This document shows positions 56,386 through 63,027 of a stretch of DNA of 64,000 nucleotides, one piece after another. Under the pieces are notes generated by a model. It saw only the letters and a program-made list of their open reading frames with translations, searched no databases and had not been told where the DNA came from. Origin of the DNA: Sulfuricaulis limicola. Lineage in GTDB: Bacteria > Pseudomonadota > Gammaproteobacteria > Acidiferrobacterales > Sulfurifustaceae. Position 1 is the stretch's first letter, and each line of letters begins with the position of its first letter. Location of the stretch: contig NZ_AP014879.1 of NCBI RefSeq assembly GCF_002355735.1, positions 930,001-994,000 of the forward strand, written 5' to 3'. Both the position numbers and the translations under genes were made by a program.

Positions 56386-57309
56386 ATGAAATGGCATCTT
56401 GTTGTCAGGGTTGTTGCAGCGTGTCTTCTGTTTGGTCTGGCCTCGTCGGCGGGTGCTGCTACCCGCAATTACACGCTGTACATCACCGCCGGAACGTTGA
56501 CGATTAACGGAAGTGGCGGCGCTTCGATGGCCGCCTGGGGTTACACCGAAGTCGCGGGTACCCCGAAATTCCCCGGACCGACATTGACGGCGAATGAAGG
56601 CGATACCGTCAACATTACGGTCATCAACAACCACACCATCAACCACAATTTTCTTGTCAACGGTATAACGACGGATACCGCCGCCATCGCCCCGGGGGCC
56701 AGTCGCGTCTACTCCTTCACGGCCAGCACAGCTGGCACTTATCTCTACTACGACACGCTCAACAACAACATCAATCGCGAGATGGGCTTATACGGCATGC
56801 TTTGGGTCGGACCGGCCGATGGCAGCAACAAGGCTTGGACCAATGGGCCGTCGTACAGCTTCCAGCGTTTGTGGGTGCTGGGTGAGGTGGACAAACCGCG
56901 CTGGAACGATGTCGCCGGCAGTGGCGGGACCGTCAACACTTCGGTATACAAGCCGAATTATTTTCTCATTAACGGTCAGGGTGGATTCGATGGCATGCAT
57001 AACACCGCCACGACCATTGACGGTGGCGTGGGGCAGACCGCGCTGGTGCGTATCGTCAACGGCGGGCAGTTCGCGCAATCGTTGCACTTCCATGGCAACC
57101 ATGTGCAGGTGCTGACGATAAATGGCATACGCCAGAGTTCGCCATACAAGCAGGTGGATGTGATCAACATTCCTCCACTCGGAAAAGCCGACGTGCTGTT
57201 TCCCCTGAACCAGCTTGGCGAGTATCCGATGCACAATCACACGGCCCAGATGGAAACCGCCAATGGCGTGTACCTGAACGGCGTCGCCACCATGATCATC
57301 ATGCGCTAA
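56386..57309 (+). CDS. Secreted two-domain cupredoxin protein, half 1 of a split multicopper oxidase
   Basis: 307 residues from ATG 56386 (GGAGGAAATTC upstream). Signal peptide to about residue 25, then two cupredoxin domains. Domain 1 (YTLYITAGTLTINGSGGASMAAWGYTEVAGTPKFPGPTLTANEGDTVNITVINNHTINHNFLVNG, ending NREMGLYGMLWVGP) has no copper-ligand set. Domain 2 carries SLHFHGNHVQVL and GEYPMHNHTAQMETANGVYLNG: two HxH motifs (HFH, HNH) but no Cys where the type 1 site would be. The next gene supplies the complementary motifs. 22 bp separate the two genes. Confidence 0.8.
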   Translation: MKWHLVVRVVAACLLFGLASSAGAATRNYTLYITAGTLTINGSGGASMAAWGYTEVAGTPKFPGPTLTANEGDTVNITVINNHTINHNFLVNGITTDTAAIAPGASRVYSFTASTAGTYLYYDTLNNNINREMGLYGMLWVGPADGSNKAWTNGPSYSFQRLWVLGEVDKPRWNDVAGSGGTVNTSVYKPNYFLINGQGGFDGMHNTATTIDGGVGQTALVRIVNGGQFAQSLHFHGNHVQVLTINGIRQSSPYKQVDVINIPPLGKADVLFPLNQLGEYPMHNHTAQMETANGVYLNGVATMIIMR

Positions 57310-57331
57310 TGCACGGAGGAGAAATCAAATC

Positions 57332-58351
57332 ATGAATATTTCATCAATGATCAAGACCGGCATTGCTGGCATGTTGGCGCTGGTCGCCAGCGTTATTTTC
57401 AGCACGGCGCATGCCGTCAACATCAATCTCACCAAGTGCGTCACCACCCTGAACAAGACCATGAGCGATGGTCAGCGTGTCACTTTCTGGGTCTTCGGCA
57501 CGGGCGGCATGATGTGCGGAGGAGGAACGTTGCCAGGCGCGGTGGTTGAAGTAGGTGTTTATCCATCCGGCGTCAGTACCACTGACACCCTTAACCTCAC
57601 ACTTAATATGATGATGGCCCCGCAGGAGGCCGCGCCGTACAACGGCCACACCATCCACCTGCACGGGGCAGACGTGACGACCAGCGAGGACGGCGTGCCG
57701 GAGACCGGGGCGCCGGTGAACGGCGATACCTATACCTGGACGCCGACGCGCGATATGGCCGGGAGTTATATGTACCACTGCCATGTGCATACGGTGAAAC
57801 ACCTGGAGATGGGTATGTATGGGGCGCTGATCGTGCGACCCAGGAACGCTGGCGGTACTTTCCTCAATCAGCTCACGCACAACACGGCGACAGCGTATAA
57901 CTACGTGCAGAACTATGTGCTGGGCACGGTGGACCCGGCGTATCACACCGCCACCGGCGACTCGACCGTGTTCGCCGACTACAACCCGCGCTACTTCCTG
58001 ATCGCCGGCAACGAGGGCCGGACCACTTCCGCACCCGCGATCAGCCTGACGGCGGCACGGAGCAGCAAGGTGGCACTGCGGTTGATCGGACTGCATTCGG
58101 CGAACAGCACTTTCGCCGTCAAGGACGGGTCCGGCAACGCCAAGTCGTTCACGGTGTACACGCAGGACGGGCGCGAGCTGTCATCGCCCCAGACGGTGAC
58201 GAGCCTCGATATCACCCCGGGACAGCGCTTTGACATCATCTTCACCACGCCGTCCACGGCCGGCACCTGGTATCCGCAAGTGACATACAAGGACCTGCGT
58301 AATAACACGGCTTACACGAATGGGGCCGTCTATGGTCGGGTGACGTTCTAG
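57332..58351 (+). CDS. Secreted two-domain cupredoxin protein, half 2 of a split multicopper oxidase
   Basis: 339 residues with a signal peptide (to about residue 28). Domain 1 has the type 1 copper cluster: HTIHLHGADV (H-x2-H-x-H) and YMYHCHVHTVKHLEMGMYG (HCH, a further His, and the Met of GM). Domain 2 (LTAARSSKVALRLIGLHSANSTFAVKDG, ending GTWYPQVTYKD) has no HxH motif. A laccase needs four HxH motifs; this protein has HLH and HCH, and the upstream protein HFH and HNH. A terminator follows at 58378. Confidence 0.82.
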   Translation: MNISSMIKTGIAGMLALVASVIFSTAHAVNINLTKCVTTLNKTMSDGQRVTFWVFGTGGMMCGGGTLPGAVVEVGVYPSGVSTTDTLNLTLNMMMAPQEAAPYNGHTIHLHGADVTTSEDGVPETGAPVNGDTYTWTPTRDMAGSYMYHCHVHTVKHLEMGMYGALIVRPRNAGGTFLNQLTHNTATAYNYVQNYVLGTVDPAYHTATGDSTVFADYNPRYFLIAGNEGRTTSAPAISLTAARSSKVALRLIGLHSANSTFAVKDGSGNAKSFTVYTQDGRELSSPQTVTSLDITPGQRFDIIFTTPSTAGTWYPQVTYKDLRNNTAYTNGAVYGRVTF

Positions 58352-58519: not shown

Positions 58520-59542
58520 GTGGATTACGATAATTCCAAACAATCCGGTTATCTGAACACCGGCCAGACGAGCTGCCACGATGAGCACGGGCGGATCATC
58601 CCCTGCGCCGGCAGCGGACAGGACGCCGAGTTTCACACCGGCATTCCGTGGCCGAGTCCGCGCTTCGAGGTGCGGGATGAGATCGTGCTCGACCGCCTGA
58701 CGGGTTTGATGTGGACGCGCAACGCCAATCTCGCGGAGTACCCGTTGACCTGGCAGGAGGCGCTCGGTTTCGTCGCCGGCACGAACCGCGAATGCGCCAT
58801 GGGCTGCAACGACTGGCGCCTGCCCAATCGACGCGAACTGCGCAGCCTCGTCAGTCATCAGACGCACCGACCGGCGCTGCCAGAGGATCATGCTTTTATT
58901 AACGTCTTTCCTAGCTGGTACTGGACTTCAACCACCGCCGCGATCAGTCCGGGGCATGCTTGGTACGTGAATCTGGACGGTGCACGCATGTTTTACGGTG
59001 GCAAGGATCAGTCGTATCTCGTATGGCCGGTGCGCGGTGAAAGTCACGTGCTTCCTGTTACCGGGCAGGGGCTTTGTTCTGATGTGCAAGGTCAGGAAAT
59101 TCCTTGCCGTGGAACCGGGCAAGATGGCGAACTGCGCGCCGGGTCTGCTTGGCCTCAGCCACGTTTCACGGGGCAGGGCGACAGGGTGTTTGATTGTCTC
59201 ACCCATCTGTATTGGATGCGGCATGCCAATCTGACGCACGAGCCCGTCAGCTGGTCTGAAGCGCTGGCGGCGGTTGCTGCGCTGAATCGTGAACAGTTCC
59301 AAGGTGGATACTGGCGGTTGCCGAACATCAACGAATTGGAGTCGCTCGTGGATTGCTCTGCGCACAGCCCGGCATTAACAGCAGGACACCCCTTTAGCAA
59401 CGTGCGCGATGTTTACTGGTCATCCACCACGAGCCTGTTCGAACCCGATTGGGCCTGGGCATTGTATATTGACAAGGGCGCGGTCGGCGTCGGACAGAAG
59501 CGGCAGGCGCGGTTTTACGTCTGGGCGGTGAGTGACACGTAA
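58520..59542 (+). CDS. Protein with two DUF1566 (Lcl C-terminal-like) domains
   Basis: 340 residues, GTG start at 58520 (no better start in frame). Two similar halves: LDRLTGLMWTRNANLAEYPLTWQEALGFVAGTNRECAMGCNDWRLPNRRELRSLVSHQTHRPALP...YWTSTT, and FDCLTHLYWMRHANLTHEPVSWSEALAAVAALNREQFQGGYWRLPNINELESLVDCSAHSPAL...YWSSTT. The WRLPNxxELxSLVD and YWSSTT blocks define DUF1566, often found on surface or adhesin-like proteins. No signal peptide is seen. Role unknown. Confidence 0.85.
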   Translation: MDYDNSKQSGYLNTGQTSCHDEHGRIIPCAGSGQDAEFHTGIPWPSPRFEVRDEIVLDRLTGLMWTRNANLAEYPLTWQEALGFVAGTNRECAMGCNDWRLPNRRELRSLVSHQTHRPALPEDHAFINVFPSWYWTSTTAAISPGHAWYVNLDGARMFYGGKDQSYLVWPVRGESHVLPVTGQGLCSDVQGQEIPCRGTGQDGELRAGSAWPQPRFTGQGDRVFDCLTHLYWMRHANLTHEPVSWSEALAAVAALNREQFQGGYWRLPNINELESLVDCSAHSPALTAGHPFSNVRDVYWSSTTSLFEPDWAWALYIDKGAVGVGQKRQARFYVWAVSDT

Positions 59543-59661: not shown

Positions 59662-60618
59662 CTACAACCGGTCTATCCACGCCTGGATCTTCCCCAGAAT
59701 GACCTCGAACGGAATTTGCTCGTTGAAGTAAAGCGGTGCCGTGGCCTGGTAGGCGAGGGTGTATTGTTTCCGGGTTGCCGGGTCCGATAAAAGAAACGCC
59801 TCATTTTCAGCGATATTCAGATCGTCGCCTGTTCTGAAACGGTGTTCCTTCCGCGCGCGATATTCAGGGGTGCCGATGAAGGCGATGACCTCCGGATGGT
59901 CCAGGAGTTGACTGATGTCGTAATAATGCCGTAGGAAGTTGGGCGGCAGTTCCCCCTTTTCCTGCTGTTGCCGGAACTTGGTGGAGACGGTTTGCAGCTT
60001 TTCGACGAAGGTATAACCAGGGTGGTAACAAGGAACGTCGACGGCTCGGTTGTCTTCGATGGTTATATGGCTTTCCGATGCCTTGTCGAAGGCCCAGGAA
60101 GAGATCGTCCGGGGCATGTTCGGCAGGGTGTCATCGAAGCCGAGCTCCAGGAGAATGCCCTCCTTCAGCCCGGCGGGATGGTCAAAGGCGCTGTCGTAGC
60201 GTAACCGGATGCCGCCGCTGCGGTATTTCTCGTCATCGAAGGCACGATCGCGTGACACCTCGCTGATACCTGTGATTCGAATCGTATCGCCGAGCCAGTC
60301 GTAAAACTGTTTTCGGGATGCGATATGGCGTGCCTTCTTGGTTTGGGTCGGTGCGGTGAAGACCTCGAAGGGGGCGCCGGCCGGGTCGATGCGAATGTCG
60401 AGGTCTTCCGAGAAACGCTGGACGATGCCGAAACCCTTAGACAGCGAGGTGCCGCCCTTGAGTTCGAAAACGAAACCCTGTGCCGCCAGCCCGTACAGGC
60501 AGTGCATGATCCAGTAGTCTTTCTCCACGAGCGCCGGTAACAGCTGGCGCTCGGCGGCGACGATCCGGATCAGATCGGCAAAATCAGATCGCTCGTGCAG
60601 GTAGGGGTCAGGCGGCAT
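59662..60618 (-). CDS. AbiEii-family nucleotidyltransferase toxin (module 1)
   Basis: 318 residues from ATG 60618, whose start overlaps the antitoxin stop by 11 bp. Nucleotidyltransferase motifs: VEKDYWIMHCLYGL, FELKGGTSLSKGFGIVQRFSEDLDIRIDPAG (G-G-T-S-L-S-K and the D-x-D-x metal pair), and a later helical domain. Matches AbiEii/type IV toxin-antitoxin toxins, which modify tRNA 3' ends or other targets and act in phage defence. Paired with the AbiEi-like gene upstream. Confidence 0.88.
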   Translation of the reverse strand: MPPDPYLHERSDFADLIRIVAAERQLLPALVEKDYWIMHCLYGLAAQGFVFELKGGTSLSKGFGIVQRFSEDLDIRIDPAGAPFEVFTAPTQTKKARHIASRKQFYDWLGDTIRITGISEVSRDRAFDDEKYRSGGIRLRYDSAFDHPAGLKEGILLELGFDDTLPNMPRTISSWAFDKASESHITIEDNRAVDVPCYHPGYTFVEKLQTVSTKFRQQQEKGELPPNFLRHYYDISQLLDHPEVIAFIGTPEYRARKEHRFRTGDDLNIAENEAFLLSDPATRKQYTLAYQATAPLYFNEQIPFEVILGKIQAWIDRL

Positions 60619-61195
60619 CCGCCAGCGCCTGGTCGAAGAATTTTCGGGTGGCGACCTTGCCGTAGTCACGCGCGGCCAGCCGGAGCTTGCCGGCGTTCAA
60701 CTCCTTGGCTTTGGCGCGCGCCCGCGCACGCAGTGTTTCCACGTCTTCGGCCAGCGCGGGCAGATTATTCAGGAGATCCACGAGCAGAAATTCTTCCGTG
60801 AGTTTCCGGGGGAAGCGGGGTTTGCGGCGGAACTCGAAGGCGTGGCCGCCCAGCGTGAAGCGGCCATGGCGCTTGTGGTTGTAGACGACGTGGGTGTTAT
60901 AGAGCTGGGTCGTGCCCAGGCCCAGGGTGTTGTAGGCATTCGGGGAGGTGAGCAGGAAGTCGTCCTCCTTCAGAAAGCGGCGGACCAGCTCCCGCTCCTC
61001 TGCCGGCACCCGCCCGAAGACCGAGGCCTTGGGGTAGTAATACAGCCCGTTCTGAAGTTTCTGCAGCACGCCCGCCGCGACCAGCTCACGGGCATGCCGG
61101 TCGACGCTTTTCGACCATTGAGCCAGGTCCGCGCGCCGGTACACGCGACCGGGGCACAGGTGCCTTTTCAGCTGTTCCGAGCGATTCATGGCCAT
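60608..61195 (-). CDS. AbiEi-like antitoxin (module 1)
   Basis: 195 residues. Winged-helix N-terminus (SEQLKRHLCPGRVYRRADLAQWSKSVDRHARELVAAGVLQKLQNGLYYYPKASVFGRVPAE) then an AbiEi-type C-terminal part (DDFLLTSPNAYNTLGLGTTQLYNTHVVYNHKRHGRFTLGGHAFEFRRKPRFP). Co-transcribed with the toxin gene (11-bp overlap). Usually represses its own promoter, here in the 208-bp gap shared with module 2, which is transcribed the other way. Confidence 0.82.
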   Translation of the reverse strand: MAMNRSEQLKRHLCPGRVYRRADLAQWSKSVDRHARELVAAGVLQKLQNGLYYYPKASVFGRVPAEERELVRRFLKEDDFLLTSPNAYNTLGLGTTQLYNTHVVYNHKRHGRFTLGGHAFEFRRKPRFPRKLTEEFLLVDLLNNLPALAEDVETLRARARAKAKELNAGKLRLAARDYGKVATRKFFDQALADAA

Positions 61196-61324
61196 TTCCT
61201 CTGATAAAGAATATAACGCCGGTCGCCATGAATGACAAGAAAATTATTAAAAAAACATGCATTATGTTATATAAGTTACTGTAATATAAATAAATATGTT
61301 GTTACATAAGTCGTTAAAACAAGG

Positions 61325-61358
61325 CTGTGCCTGGCGAATTGCAATTCGCCAGGCACAG
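61325..61358. promoter_or_regulatory. Perfect 34-bp palindrome between the two AbiE modules
   Basis: Arms CTGTGCCTGGCGAATTG and its exact reverse complement meet at the centre, giving a 34-bp perfect palindrome with no loop. It lies about 45 bp before the module 2 start and 130 bp before the module 1 start. No T-run follows on the plus strand. It may be an operator, a REP-like element or a cruciform site. Confidence 0.6.
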
Positions 61359-61374
61359 GTTCATTCTTGAAATC

Positions 61375-61402
61375 TGTCAGAAAAATGTATATATTTCTGA
61401 CA
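61375..61402. promoter_or_regulatory. Candidate autorepressor site at the module 2 start
   Basis: TGTCAGAAA, 10 bp (AATGTATATA), TTTCTGACA: perfect 9-bp arms ending one base before the ATG at 61404. The spacer contains a -10-like TATATA. The antitoxin would then block both RNA polymerase and the start codon, or the message is leaderless. Confidence 0.55.
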
Positions 61403-61403
61403 T

Positions 61404-62015
61404 ATGAAAAAGGTCACGCTAACGTTGATGCAACAGATCCTGGCGCAGGTCGCGGGAGCGCCCGAAGGTGCCACGCTCTCCGCGAAAGCGTTATTGCACC
61501 TGGGCAGCCGGGCGGCACTGGATCAGGCATTGTCACGCCTGGTGCGCCGGAGACAGCTCATGCGAGCAGGGCGAGGGGTCTATGTACGCCCGGTTGAAAC
61601 GCGCTTTGGTGTCCGCGCACCCTCCGTGGAAAAGGTGGTCGAGGCCATCGCCAGCCGGCGGGGCGAAACGGTGGTTTCGCACGGGGCCGCTGCTGCCAAT
61701 GCGCTGGGCCTCACATCGCAGGTACCCGTCCGTATGGTCTACCTGACCTCCGGTCGAAGCCGCCATTTGAAGCTGGGCGCGCAGGTCGTGGAGTTGAAGC
61801 ATGCGCCGGGGTGGCAACTCATCAAGGCCGGAGAACCCGCGGGCGAAGCCGTGCGTGCACTCGCGTGGCTGGGTCCCGCCCATGCCCCCGAGGCACTCAA
61901 GACCTTGAAGCGGAAACTGTCCGAGTCCGAGTTTCGGGCGCTGGGAGCCACCCGGCACGTGCTGCCGGGATGGCTGGCCGAGCAGGTGAGTGCCGAGCTG
62001 GCCGCAAATGGCTGA
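61404..62015 (+). CDS. DUF6088/AbiEi-like antitoxin (module 2)
   Basis: 203 residues from ATG 61404 (a second ATG at 61428 is an alternative, because the first has no room for a ribosome site). Winged-helix N-terminus (QQILAQVAGAPEGATLSAKALLHLGSRAALDQALSRLVRRRQLMRAGRGVYVRPVETRFGVRAPSVEKVVEAIASRRGE) and a beta-rich middle (SHGAAAANALGLTSQVPVRMVYLTSGRSRHLKLG). DUF6088 antitoxins neutralise AbiEii toxins. Overlaps the toxin gene by 8 bp. Confidence 0.82.
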   Translation: MKKVTLTLMQQILAQVAGAPEGATLSAKALLHLGSRAALDQALSRLVRRRQLMRAGRGVYVRPVETRFGVRAPSVEKVVEAIASRRGETVVSHGAAAANALGLTSQVPVRMVYLTSGRSRHLKLGAQVVELKHAPGWQLIKAGEPAGEAVRALAWLGPAHAPEALKTLKRKLSESEFRALGATRHVLPGWLAEQVSAELAANG

Positions 62016-63027
62016 GATCTTTCTGCGACTCTCTCCCGAAGAGCGGCTCGAGGCGCTGGGCGTCGCCGCGACCAGTTCGGGGCGGCCGCTGCATCTGCTG
62101 GAGAAGGATGTCTGGGTCGTGTGGGCGCTGGCGGCACTGTTCGAATCACGCTTCGCCGGTCATCTCGTCTTCAAGGGCGGGACCTCGCTATCGAAGGCCT
62201 ACCAGGCGATCCGGCGGTTCTCGGAGGATATCGATGTCACCTATGATATCCGCGAGTTGGCCCCCGATCTGGTCGGGGATGCCCCGGAGGCGCTGCCTGC
62301 CAACCCCAGCCAGGAGAAGAAGTGGACCAGCACGATCAGAAAGCGGTTGCCGGCCTGGGTGGCAGAACAGGCGCTGCCCCTCATCCAAGCCCGGCTGAAG
62401 GAGATCGATGTCCCGGCCAGGGCAGAGGCTCATGGTGAGTTCATCCGTATTGCGTACGATGCCCTTGCTCATGGAAAGGGGTACGTGGCACCGGTGGTGA
62501 CGCTTGAGTTCGGGGCGCGATCCACGGGCGAGCCGTGCGCGGTCAGGCCCGTGACATGCGATGCCGCCAGATTCTTGTCTGGTCTGGTGTGGCCCGAGGC
62601 CTCGCCCCGCGTCATGCGTATCGAGCGGACCTTCTGGGAGAAGGCGACGGCCATTCACGTGTTCTGCCGCCAGCAGCGGTTACGGGGCGAGCGGTTCGCG
62701 CGTCACTGGCACGATCTGACGCGACTCGACATCGCCGGATATGCGACCAAGGCGCTCGACGATCGGGATCTGGCCCGTGCCGTCGCGCGACACAAGGCGT
62801 TGTTCTTTTCGGAGAAGGACAAGGCAGGAAACGAGATCGACTACAAGGCCGCGGTCTCCGGCGACCTGCAACTCGTTCCCACAGGCAGGGCACGGGAGGC
62901 GCTGGAGGCGGATTATGATCGAATGGTGGAGGATGGCATTCTGCTCGACGATGTGGATCCGTTCGCTCTCGTGATCGACCGCTGCCGTGCCATCCAGGCA
63001 CGGGCCAATGTCGGGTCAGGGAGCTGA
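62008..63027 (+). CDS. AbiEii-family nucleotidyltransferase toxin (module 2)
   Basis: 339 residues from ATG 62008. Motifs: EKDVWVVWALAALFESRFAGHLVFKGGTSLSKAYQAIRRFSEDIDVTYDIRE, the nucleotidyltransferase GGTSLSK and D-x-D pair, then YVAPVVTLEFGARSTGEPCAVRPV and ERTFWEKATAIHVFCRQQRLRGERFARHWHDLTRL. Not a duplicate of module 1: the toxins share only the motif region. The last intact gene of island B; the right-end repeat begins 34 bp later. Confidence 0.87.
   Translation: MAEIFLRLSPEERLEALGVAATSSGRPLHLLEKDVWVVWALAALFESRFAGHLVFKGGTSLSKAYQAIRRFSEDIDVTYDIRELAPDLVGDAPEALPANPSQEKKWTSTIRKRLPAWVAEQALPLIQARLKEIDVPARAEAHGEFIRIAYDALAHGKGYVAPVVTLEFGARSTGEPCAVRPVTCDAARFLSGLVWPEASPRVMRIERTFWEKATAIHVFCRQQRLRGERFARHWHDLTRLDIAGYATKALDDRDLARAVARHKALFFSEKDKAGNEIDYKAAVSGDLQLVPTGRAREALEADYDRMVEDGILLDDVDPFALVIDRCRAIQARANVGSGS

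Follow-up and report, generated by a model that had tools for sequence, protein, structure and literature searches.

The six domains of ceruloplasmin form a ring, of whose trinuclear sites only one survives, and its type 1 sites lie in the even-numbered domains. In the MnxEFG manganese oxidase, MnxG alone is a complete multi-domain oxidase and MnxE and MnxF are accessory, and copper nitrite reductase holds a type 2 site with three His. The two-domain multicopper oxidases are described as homotrimers with every ligand in a single polypeptide, and their classes A, B and C are told apart by the position of the type 1 copper within one chain (PMC13151041, PMC3192119). The fungal laccase POXA3, which is called heterodimeric, consists of a laccase and a small protein (PMC3129051).

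The stretch of Sulfuricaulis limicola DNA analysed here (64,000 nucleotides, hereafter the window) contains two adjacent genes on the same strand, P1 and P2, the features of which are collected in Table 1. The original prediction, made from the letters of the window, had described them as two neighbouring secreted cupredoxin proteins, and both do carry signal peptides. Its description of the motifs was right throughout, with HFH and HNH in domain 2 of P1 and HTIHLH and HCH...H...GM in domain 1 of P2, and the claim that the other domain of each protein lacks copper motifs also stood, as P1 domain 1 and P2 domain 2 are both without ligand positions. The Pfam models matched above cut-off are Cu-oxidase_3 and Cu-oxidase_2 for P1, and Cu-oxidase_3, Cu-oxidase and Cu-oxidase_2 for P2, while no family cut-off was reached by either protein in a search of NCBIfam. 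P1 and P2 share 27% identity across 188 aligned columns, which corresponds to a distant kinship, and the reading frames of both genes are intact.

Table 1 Features of the P1-P2 locus and its surroundings (positions in the window)
Feature	Position	Strand	Length or basis
Candidate FNR/Anr-like palindrome TTGACATAAATCAC, about 168 bp upstream of P1	56218..56231	+	9/10 consensus positions
P1, secreted, two cupredoxin domains, half of the trinuclear-site ligands (domain 2)	56386..57309	+	307 aa
P1 Sec-type signal peptide MKWHLVVRVVAACLLFGLASSAGA	56386..56457	+	sequence, hydrophobicity scan
P1 domain 1, all seven type C ligand positions lost	56467..56820	+	conservation count, joint alignment
P1 domain 2 ligands H234-x-H236 and invariant H239 (HFHGNH)	57085..57102	+	81/81
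P1 domain 2 ligands H283-x-H285 (HNH; PM-H283-N-H285)	57232..57240	+	81/81
Intergenic gap, 22 bp, with ribosome-binding site GGAGGAGA (57315-57322)	57310..57331	+	sequence
P2, secreted, two cupredoxin domains, type 1 copper and the other trinuclear half (domain 1)	57332..58351	+	339 aa
P2 Sec-type signal peptide MNISSMIKTGIAGMLALVASVIFSTAHA	57332..57415	+	sequence, hydrophobicity scan
P2 domain 1 H106 (type 1), H109 and H111 (trinuclear); H106-T-I-H109-L-H111-G	57647..57664	+	conservation, type C alignment
P2 domain 1 H149-C150-H151 (trinuclear, type 1, trinuclear), H157 and M162 (type 1)	57776..57817	+	conservation, type C alignment
P2 domain 2, all four ligand positions lost	57854..58351	+	joint alignment
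AbiEii homologue, beside smaller gene	59662-60669	-	
AbiEii homologue, beside smaller gene (DUF6088)	61990-63027	+	

The ligands were compared in a joint alignment at 11 positions, with homomeric type C enzymes of the same class (L108-L120) as the reference, all of which have the 11 ligands within one chain. In every row P2 keeps 7/7 of the domain 1 ligands and 0/4 of those in domain 2, and P1 keeps 4/4 in domain 2 and none of the domain 1 set. Many P1 sequences do have a His at the first of the domain 1 positions, but it makes no site without the remaining ligands. The motifs of P1 domain 2 contain no Cys, and P1 has no type 1 site. The type 1 site and the eight-His trinuclear set are complete in the pair jointly and in neither protein alone. 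Among 81 distinct neighbouring pairs, H234, H236, H239, H283 and H285 of P1 are each found in 81/81, as are H106, H111, H149, C150, H151 and H157 of P2, with H109 and M162 at 80/81 each. The pattern used to fetch the loci (HTIHxHG or VxHxEMGM) had been derived from a portion of the P2 motif, and the conservation of the P2 columns which this pattern covers is therefore partly selected for; since it covers nothing in P1, the invariance there is free of this selection effect, and H149-C150-H151 of P2 likewise fall outside the pattern. A search by profile only, with no motif pattern, returned 10 pairs, 8 of which were new, and all ligands are present in 7 of these 8. The eighth (L137) has an apparent frameshift in P1 ahead of the last HxH, which is still encoded in another frame; it is either a sequencing error or real. 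The invariance of the ligands across the 81 pairs reaches down to about 28–30% identity, and in alignments of 16 P2 and 17 P1 sequences the invariant columns are the copper ligands and a few structural residues. A family-wide lack of one HxH pair, which had been named as evidence that would speak against a shared site, was looked for in the 81 pairs and is absent. At the level of the sequences, the split of the ligands between P1 and P2, and its conservation, can be regarded as established. The fifth His of P1 (H239, 57100-57102; HxHGNH), also invariant, is placed one residue further than in the HxHGH of the homomeric enzymes.

The loss of half of the homologues' ligands in each protein could also be explained if P1 and P2 were decaying copies of a single oxidase, but the retained half is invariant over a very large divergence and many genera, and the frames are intact; we consider this reading extremely improbable.

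Homologues of P1 from the same order have a P2 homologue immediately after them. Further relatives were sought with the P2 alignment in a GTDB set holding a single genome for each species, and the best 80 of the 511 reported were kept, which together with the earlier loci gave 99 P2 loci. P1 lies directly upstream of P2 and on the same strand in 92 of them. Of the seven others, four are truncated at, or close to, the end of their contig; two form a tandem of P2 copies on the same contig, in a genome whose P1 ends another contig; and one is an extra P2 adjoining a complete P1-P2 pair. The search for the pair as neighbours across genomes, proposed as a check with the original prediction, bore it out. 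In 229 genomes across the class, P1 and P2 profile hits above about 150 bits lie side by side, the apparent exceptions to their co-occurrence being contig ends, and neither is present in 298 further genomes of the phylum. Most of the 81 distinct pairs are from Pseudomonadota; the labels Planctomycetota, Bacteroidota, Aquificota, Campylobacterota, Krumholzibacteriota, Nitrospirota, Spirochaetota and Chloroflexota are each found on one to three records, although most of the pairs come from metagenome bins and some of these phylum labels may be mis-binned; the Chloroflexota-labelled P1 has a start identical to that of P1 in a Chromatiales record. No natural P1-P2 fusions were seen among the fetched loci. 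In a maximum-likelihood tree, P1, P2 and the homomeric type C enzymes form three separate groups with strong support. The trees of P1 and P2 mirror each other, with a correlation of r = 0.87 between patristic distances (permutation maximum 0.12). Judging from gene order and phylogeny, the pairing of P1 and P2 is obligate. In three loci (L052, L051 and L057) P1 and/or P2 has an additional N-terminal domain (...SLSTDTVNIAVTENGSWTISGNDGG...) that the window pair does not have; in L052 it is on both partners, where it possibly serves a shared anchoring or location. Four other loci (L040, L058, L060 and L061) have very long N-terminal extensions of P1, with open frames of 645 to 1268 aa which include repeat-like secreted stretches.

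The way in which the two proteins would be exported differs within the family. A signal-less protein encoded beside one with a twin-arginine (Tat) signal is the hitchhiker pattern, in which a folded complex is needed before export. The window pair is Sec/Sec, and the combination of a Tat signal with a signal-less partner is found in about half of the family. In 38 pairs P2 starts without a hydrophobic signal, and P1 has a Tat motif in 38/38 by automated scan, although in one of them (L068) P2 may have a signal of its own. Among the remaining 43 pairs the crude Tat motif was matched in 5/43 P1 sequences, of which three are false on reading (L034, L041 and L057), one is ambiguous (L094) and one is a start-codon artefact (L075, the P2 of which is also without a signal). 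The export trait was then placed on the trees using labels corrected by hand from these readings, and a minimum of two changes is required on the P1 tree and likewise on the P2 tree; since the changes are few, the 38/38 linkage does not represent 38 independent events. With this reservation, the linkage between the export signals of P1 and P2 is evident from the proteins as encoded, and a Tat-bearing P1 beside a signal-less P2 is the pattern of a folded complex exported together.

Clustering of the neighbouring ORFs revealed no other gene common to most pairs. SCO1-like copper chaperone genes lie at most about 650 bp downstream of the pair in ten loci, a Crp/FNR-type regulator is encoded upstream of it in thirteen, and RND efflux genes are near several pairs, and these neighbours suggest copper handling. 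The window itself contains a metal-resistance island (4467-51356) with an RND efflux pump, P-type ATPases and two multicopper oxidases, one of them CopA-like, according to the ORFs and the Cu-oxidase_3 matches. Directly downstream of P2 is a protein with two Lcl_C domain stretches (58520-59542), which is followed by two divergent AbiE-type toxin-antitoxin-like pairs (59662-63027). The copper genes around the window pair, and the SCO1-like or Cus genes near several others, would also be in line with P1 and P2 acting separately and being adjacent through copper handling, with P2 as a homo-oligomeric blue copper carrier or small oxidase and P1 as a copper-binding protein or chaperone, and P2 domain 1 could by itself bind a type 1 copper. 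We find this very improbable: the four trinuclear-type His of P2 and the four of P1 are kept almost always although neither protein completes the site alone, and the obligate adjacency, the mirrored trees and the linkage of a Tat signal with a missing one are unexpected for independent proteins.

The FNR/Anr-like box upstream of the window pair has similar counterparts in a congener (L007) and in L015. As evidence of a shared FNR-type box this was set aside, since 6/80 loci have one with at least 9/10 positions versus about 3.6 expected from shuffles, which is a slight excess. The box in the window would nevertheless suit a complex of P1 and P2 that is no O2-reducing oxidase, being instead a copper enzyme like nitrite or NO reductase, or serving copper storage. 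The best NCBIfam hit of P1 is indeed to copper nitrite reductase (TIGR02376), but at 63.6 bits it is far below the cut-off of 296.3 bits. All eight His of the trinuclear site are conserved here, against the three-His type 2 site of nitrite reductase, and the closest solved relative of P2 by sequence is the type C oxidase 3g5w. P1 was accordingly rejected as a copper nitrite reductase, and the reading of the complex as something other than an oxidase appears very improbable.

No solved structures were found within the P1 and P2 families, and the assembly was approached by structure prediction. In many loci P1 and P2 share a reading frame that is interrupted by a single stop. By reading the stop as a residue, both chains were brought into one prediction with 25 paired rows; this carries no claim of read-through in the cell, and the joined chain may favour a tandem arrangement in the prediction. 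The window pair is not in one frame, and two relatives were folded in its place with AlphaFold2. The first (L029), a Sec-type pair close to that of the window, gave a mean pLDDT of 88 and a pTM of 0.88, and the second (L093), a distant Tat-type pair, also gave a pTM of 0.88. In both models the pLDDT falls below 50 in the linker region only. A pTM of 0.88 across the domains of two chains indicates that their relative placement is confident. The best Foldseek matches of the four-domain models are factor V, factor VIII, ceruloplasmin and MnxG (9bxa), over 740–860 alignment columns with TMq of 0.5–0.6 and rmsd of 7–9 Å, and at these values the arrangements are alike without being identical. A single two-domain half of the model finds its counterpart in the type C oxidases 3g5w and 2zwn (TMt 0.72). 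As P1 precedes P2 in the order of the ceruloplasmin-type chains, domain 2 of P1 should meet domain 1 of P2, and we infer that this would be the type of interface at which the trinuclear site is located both in ceruloplasmin and in trimers of type C. The expectation of a complex in which HFH/HNH and HLH/HCH face each other is supported as regards a confident single assembly, obtained twice, and the facing of the motifs is read from the structural match.

The number of subunits can be approached through related loci. Six of these (L121, L122, L123, L124, L125 and L126, in genomes G049, G064, G132, G156 and G192) are cassettes of three genes in the order P2-like, P1-like and a third two-cupredoxin gene, with the ligand sets (domain 1/domain 2) HHHHCHH/none, none/HHHH and none/none, respectively. 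The third, ligand-free gene is readable in five of the six, the contig of the sixth ending within it, and the L121 cassette lies in one frame. In the tree the P2-like genes side with P2, and both the P1-like and the ligand-free genes with P1. Two loci have two P2 genes per P1 (L118/L079, on the same contig, with L119; and L082), which suggests a P1-P2-P2 ring there. Together, the cassettes and the double-P2 loci speak for a ring in which three two-domain subunits share one complete site, which could be described as a “ceruloplasmin in pieces”, the three-gene cassette being possibly a three-piece ceruloplasmin. They favour this ring over the 3:3 complex, which the original prediction had listed, beside a 1:1 one, among the complexes to be modelled, and which is not supported in particular. 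It is possible, if doubtful, that the same hetero-enzyme is an open 1:1 dimer or a 3:3 assembly: the 1:1 chain alone is predicted with high confidence, but it fills just 4/6 places of the matched ceruloplasmin-type ring, and the related loci have a gene for a third subunit or a second P2.

Overall, P1 and P2 are very likely obligate non-identical subunits of one periplasmic multicopper oxidase. The idea of a hetero-oligomeric oxidase built from two gene products, on which the original prediction centred, is supported by the pairing, the conservation of the ligands and the confident predicted assembly. The best reading of this enzyme is as a split relative of the homotrimeric type C two-domain enzymes, probably forming a pseudo-trimeric ring with one active site. 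The assembly is a predicted one, and we infer the chemistry, the stoichiometry and the physiological role along the following lines. The type 1 copper of P2 domain 1 would take electrons singly from a reductant, candidates for which are copper, another metal or a phenol, and the electrons would travel via the His-Cys-His link to the trinuclear copper site, to which P2 domain 1 and P1 domain 2 would contribute four His each and at which O2 would be converted to water. The ancestor was probably a homotrimeric, type C-like two-domain oxidase, the gene of which was duplicated, with each duplicate then losing a complementary half of the ligands. After such a loss the number of active sites would be lower than in the homotrimer, with probably a single one for each ring of three two-domain subunits. 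For the window pair, the remaining position in the ring would go to another copy of P1 or P2; some lineages would fill it with the product of their second P2 gene, and the three-gene cassettes with their dedicated ligand-free subunit.

In a search of the open-access literature, which leaves preprints and most subscription journals outside its scope, the only heteromeric, split or Tat-hitchhiking multicopper oxidases found were POXA3-type laccases and Mnx, and within the same scope the statement that the two-gene arrangement is no described class held. Its novelty is therefore provisional, and lies in the distribution of one active site between two genes, the chemistry being of a known kind. 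We think it reasonably probable that P1 and P2 represent a widespread class of obligate hetero-oligomeric multicopper oxidases with a trinuclear site made by two gene products, of which the three-gene form would be a ceruloplasmin split in three, and that they are a living parallel to the supposed step from a homotrimer to a single chain of six domains. Classification counts ligands per chain, and a class that needs two gene products would be missed or misnamed by annotation; in one plasmid the two genes are annotated as ‘hypothetical protein’ and ‘multicopper oxidase domain-containing protein’. The complementary loss of ligands after duplication would be an example of a homomer becoming an obligate heteromer, and of a possible route toward ceruloplasmin-type enzymes which is open to domain-swap work. 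The family also makes it testable whether two polypeptides that share an active site have to assemble it in the cytoplasm before Tat export.

Among the known systems closest to P1 and P2 are the type C enzymes (Nitrosomonas europaea blue copper oxidase, 3g5w, and a metagenomic laccase, 2zwn). These also have two cupredoxin domains per chain, with the type 1 copper in domain 1, as in P2, and a trinuclear site that lies where domain 1 of a chain meets domain 2 of its neighbour. However, their ligands are all in one polypeptide, which is active as a homotrimer, whereas P1 and P2 hold half each, and by tree P1 and P2 group apart from homomeric type C. Copper nitrite reductase (NirK) resembles the pair in having two cupredoxin domains, the type 1 copper in domain 1 and a catalytic copper at the subunit interface, but it differs in being a homotrimer with a three-His type 2 site. 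POXA3 has in common with the pair that it is named heterodimeric, but does not consist of two complementary cupredoxin proteins. MnxEFG is likewise a hetero-oligomeric multicopper oxidase, and its MnxG is among the best structural matches; MnxG is nevertheless complete by itself, whereas P1 and P2 each carry half of the ligands. Ceruloplasmin, hephaestin and factors V and VIII offer the best structural matches of the predicted P1-P2 assembly, the similarity to the ceruloplasmin-type ring being one of predicted quaternary shape only, from a four-domain match with TMq of 0.5–0.6. The six domains of those proteins are in one chain, whereas here there are two domains per gene, in two or three separate genes.
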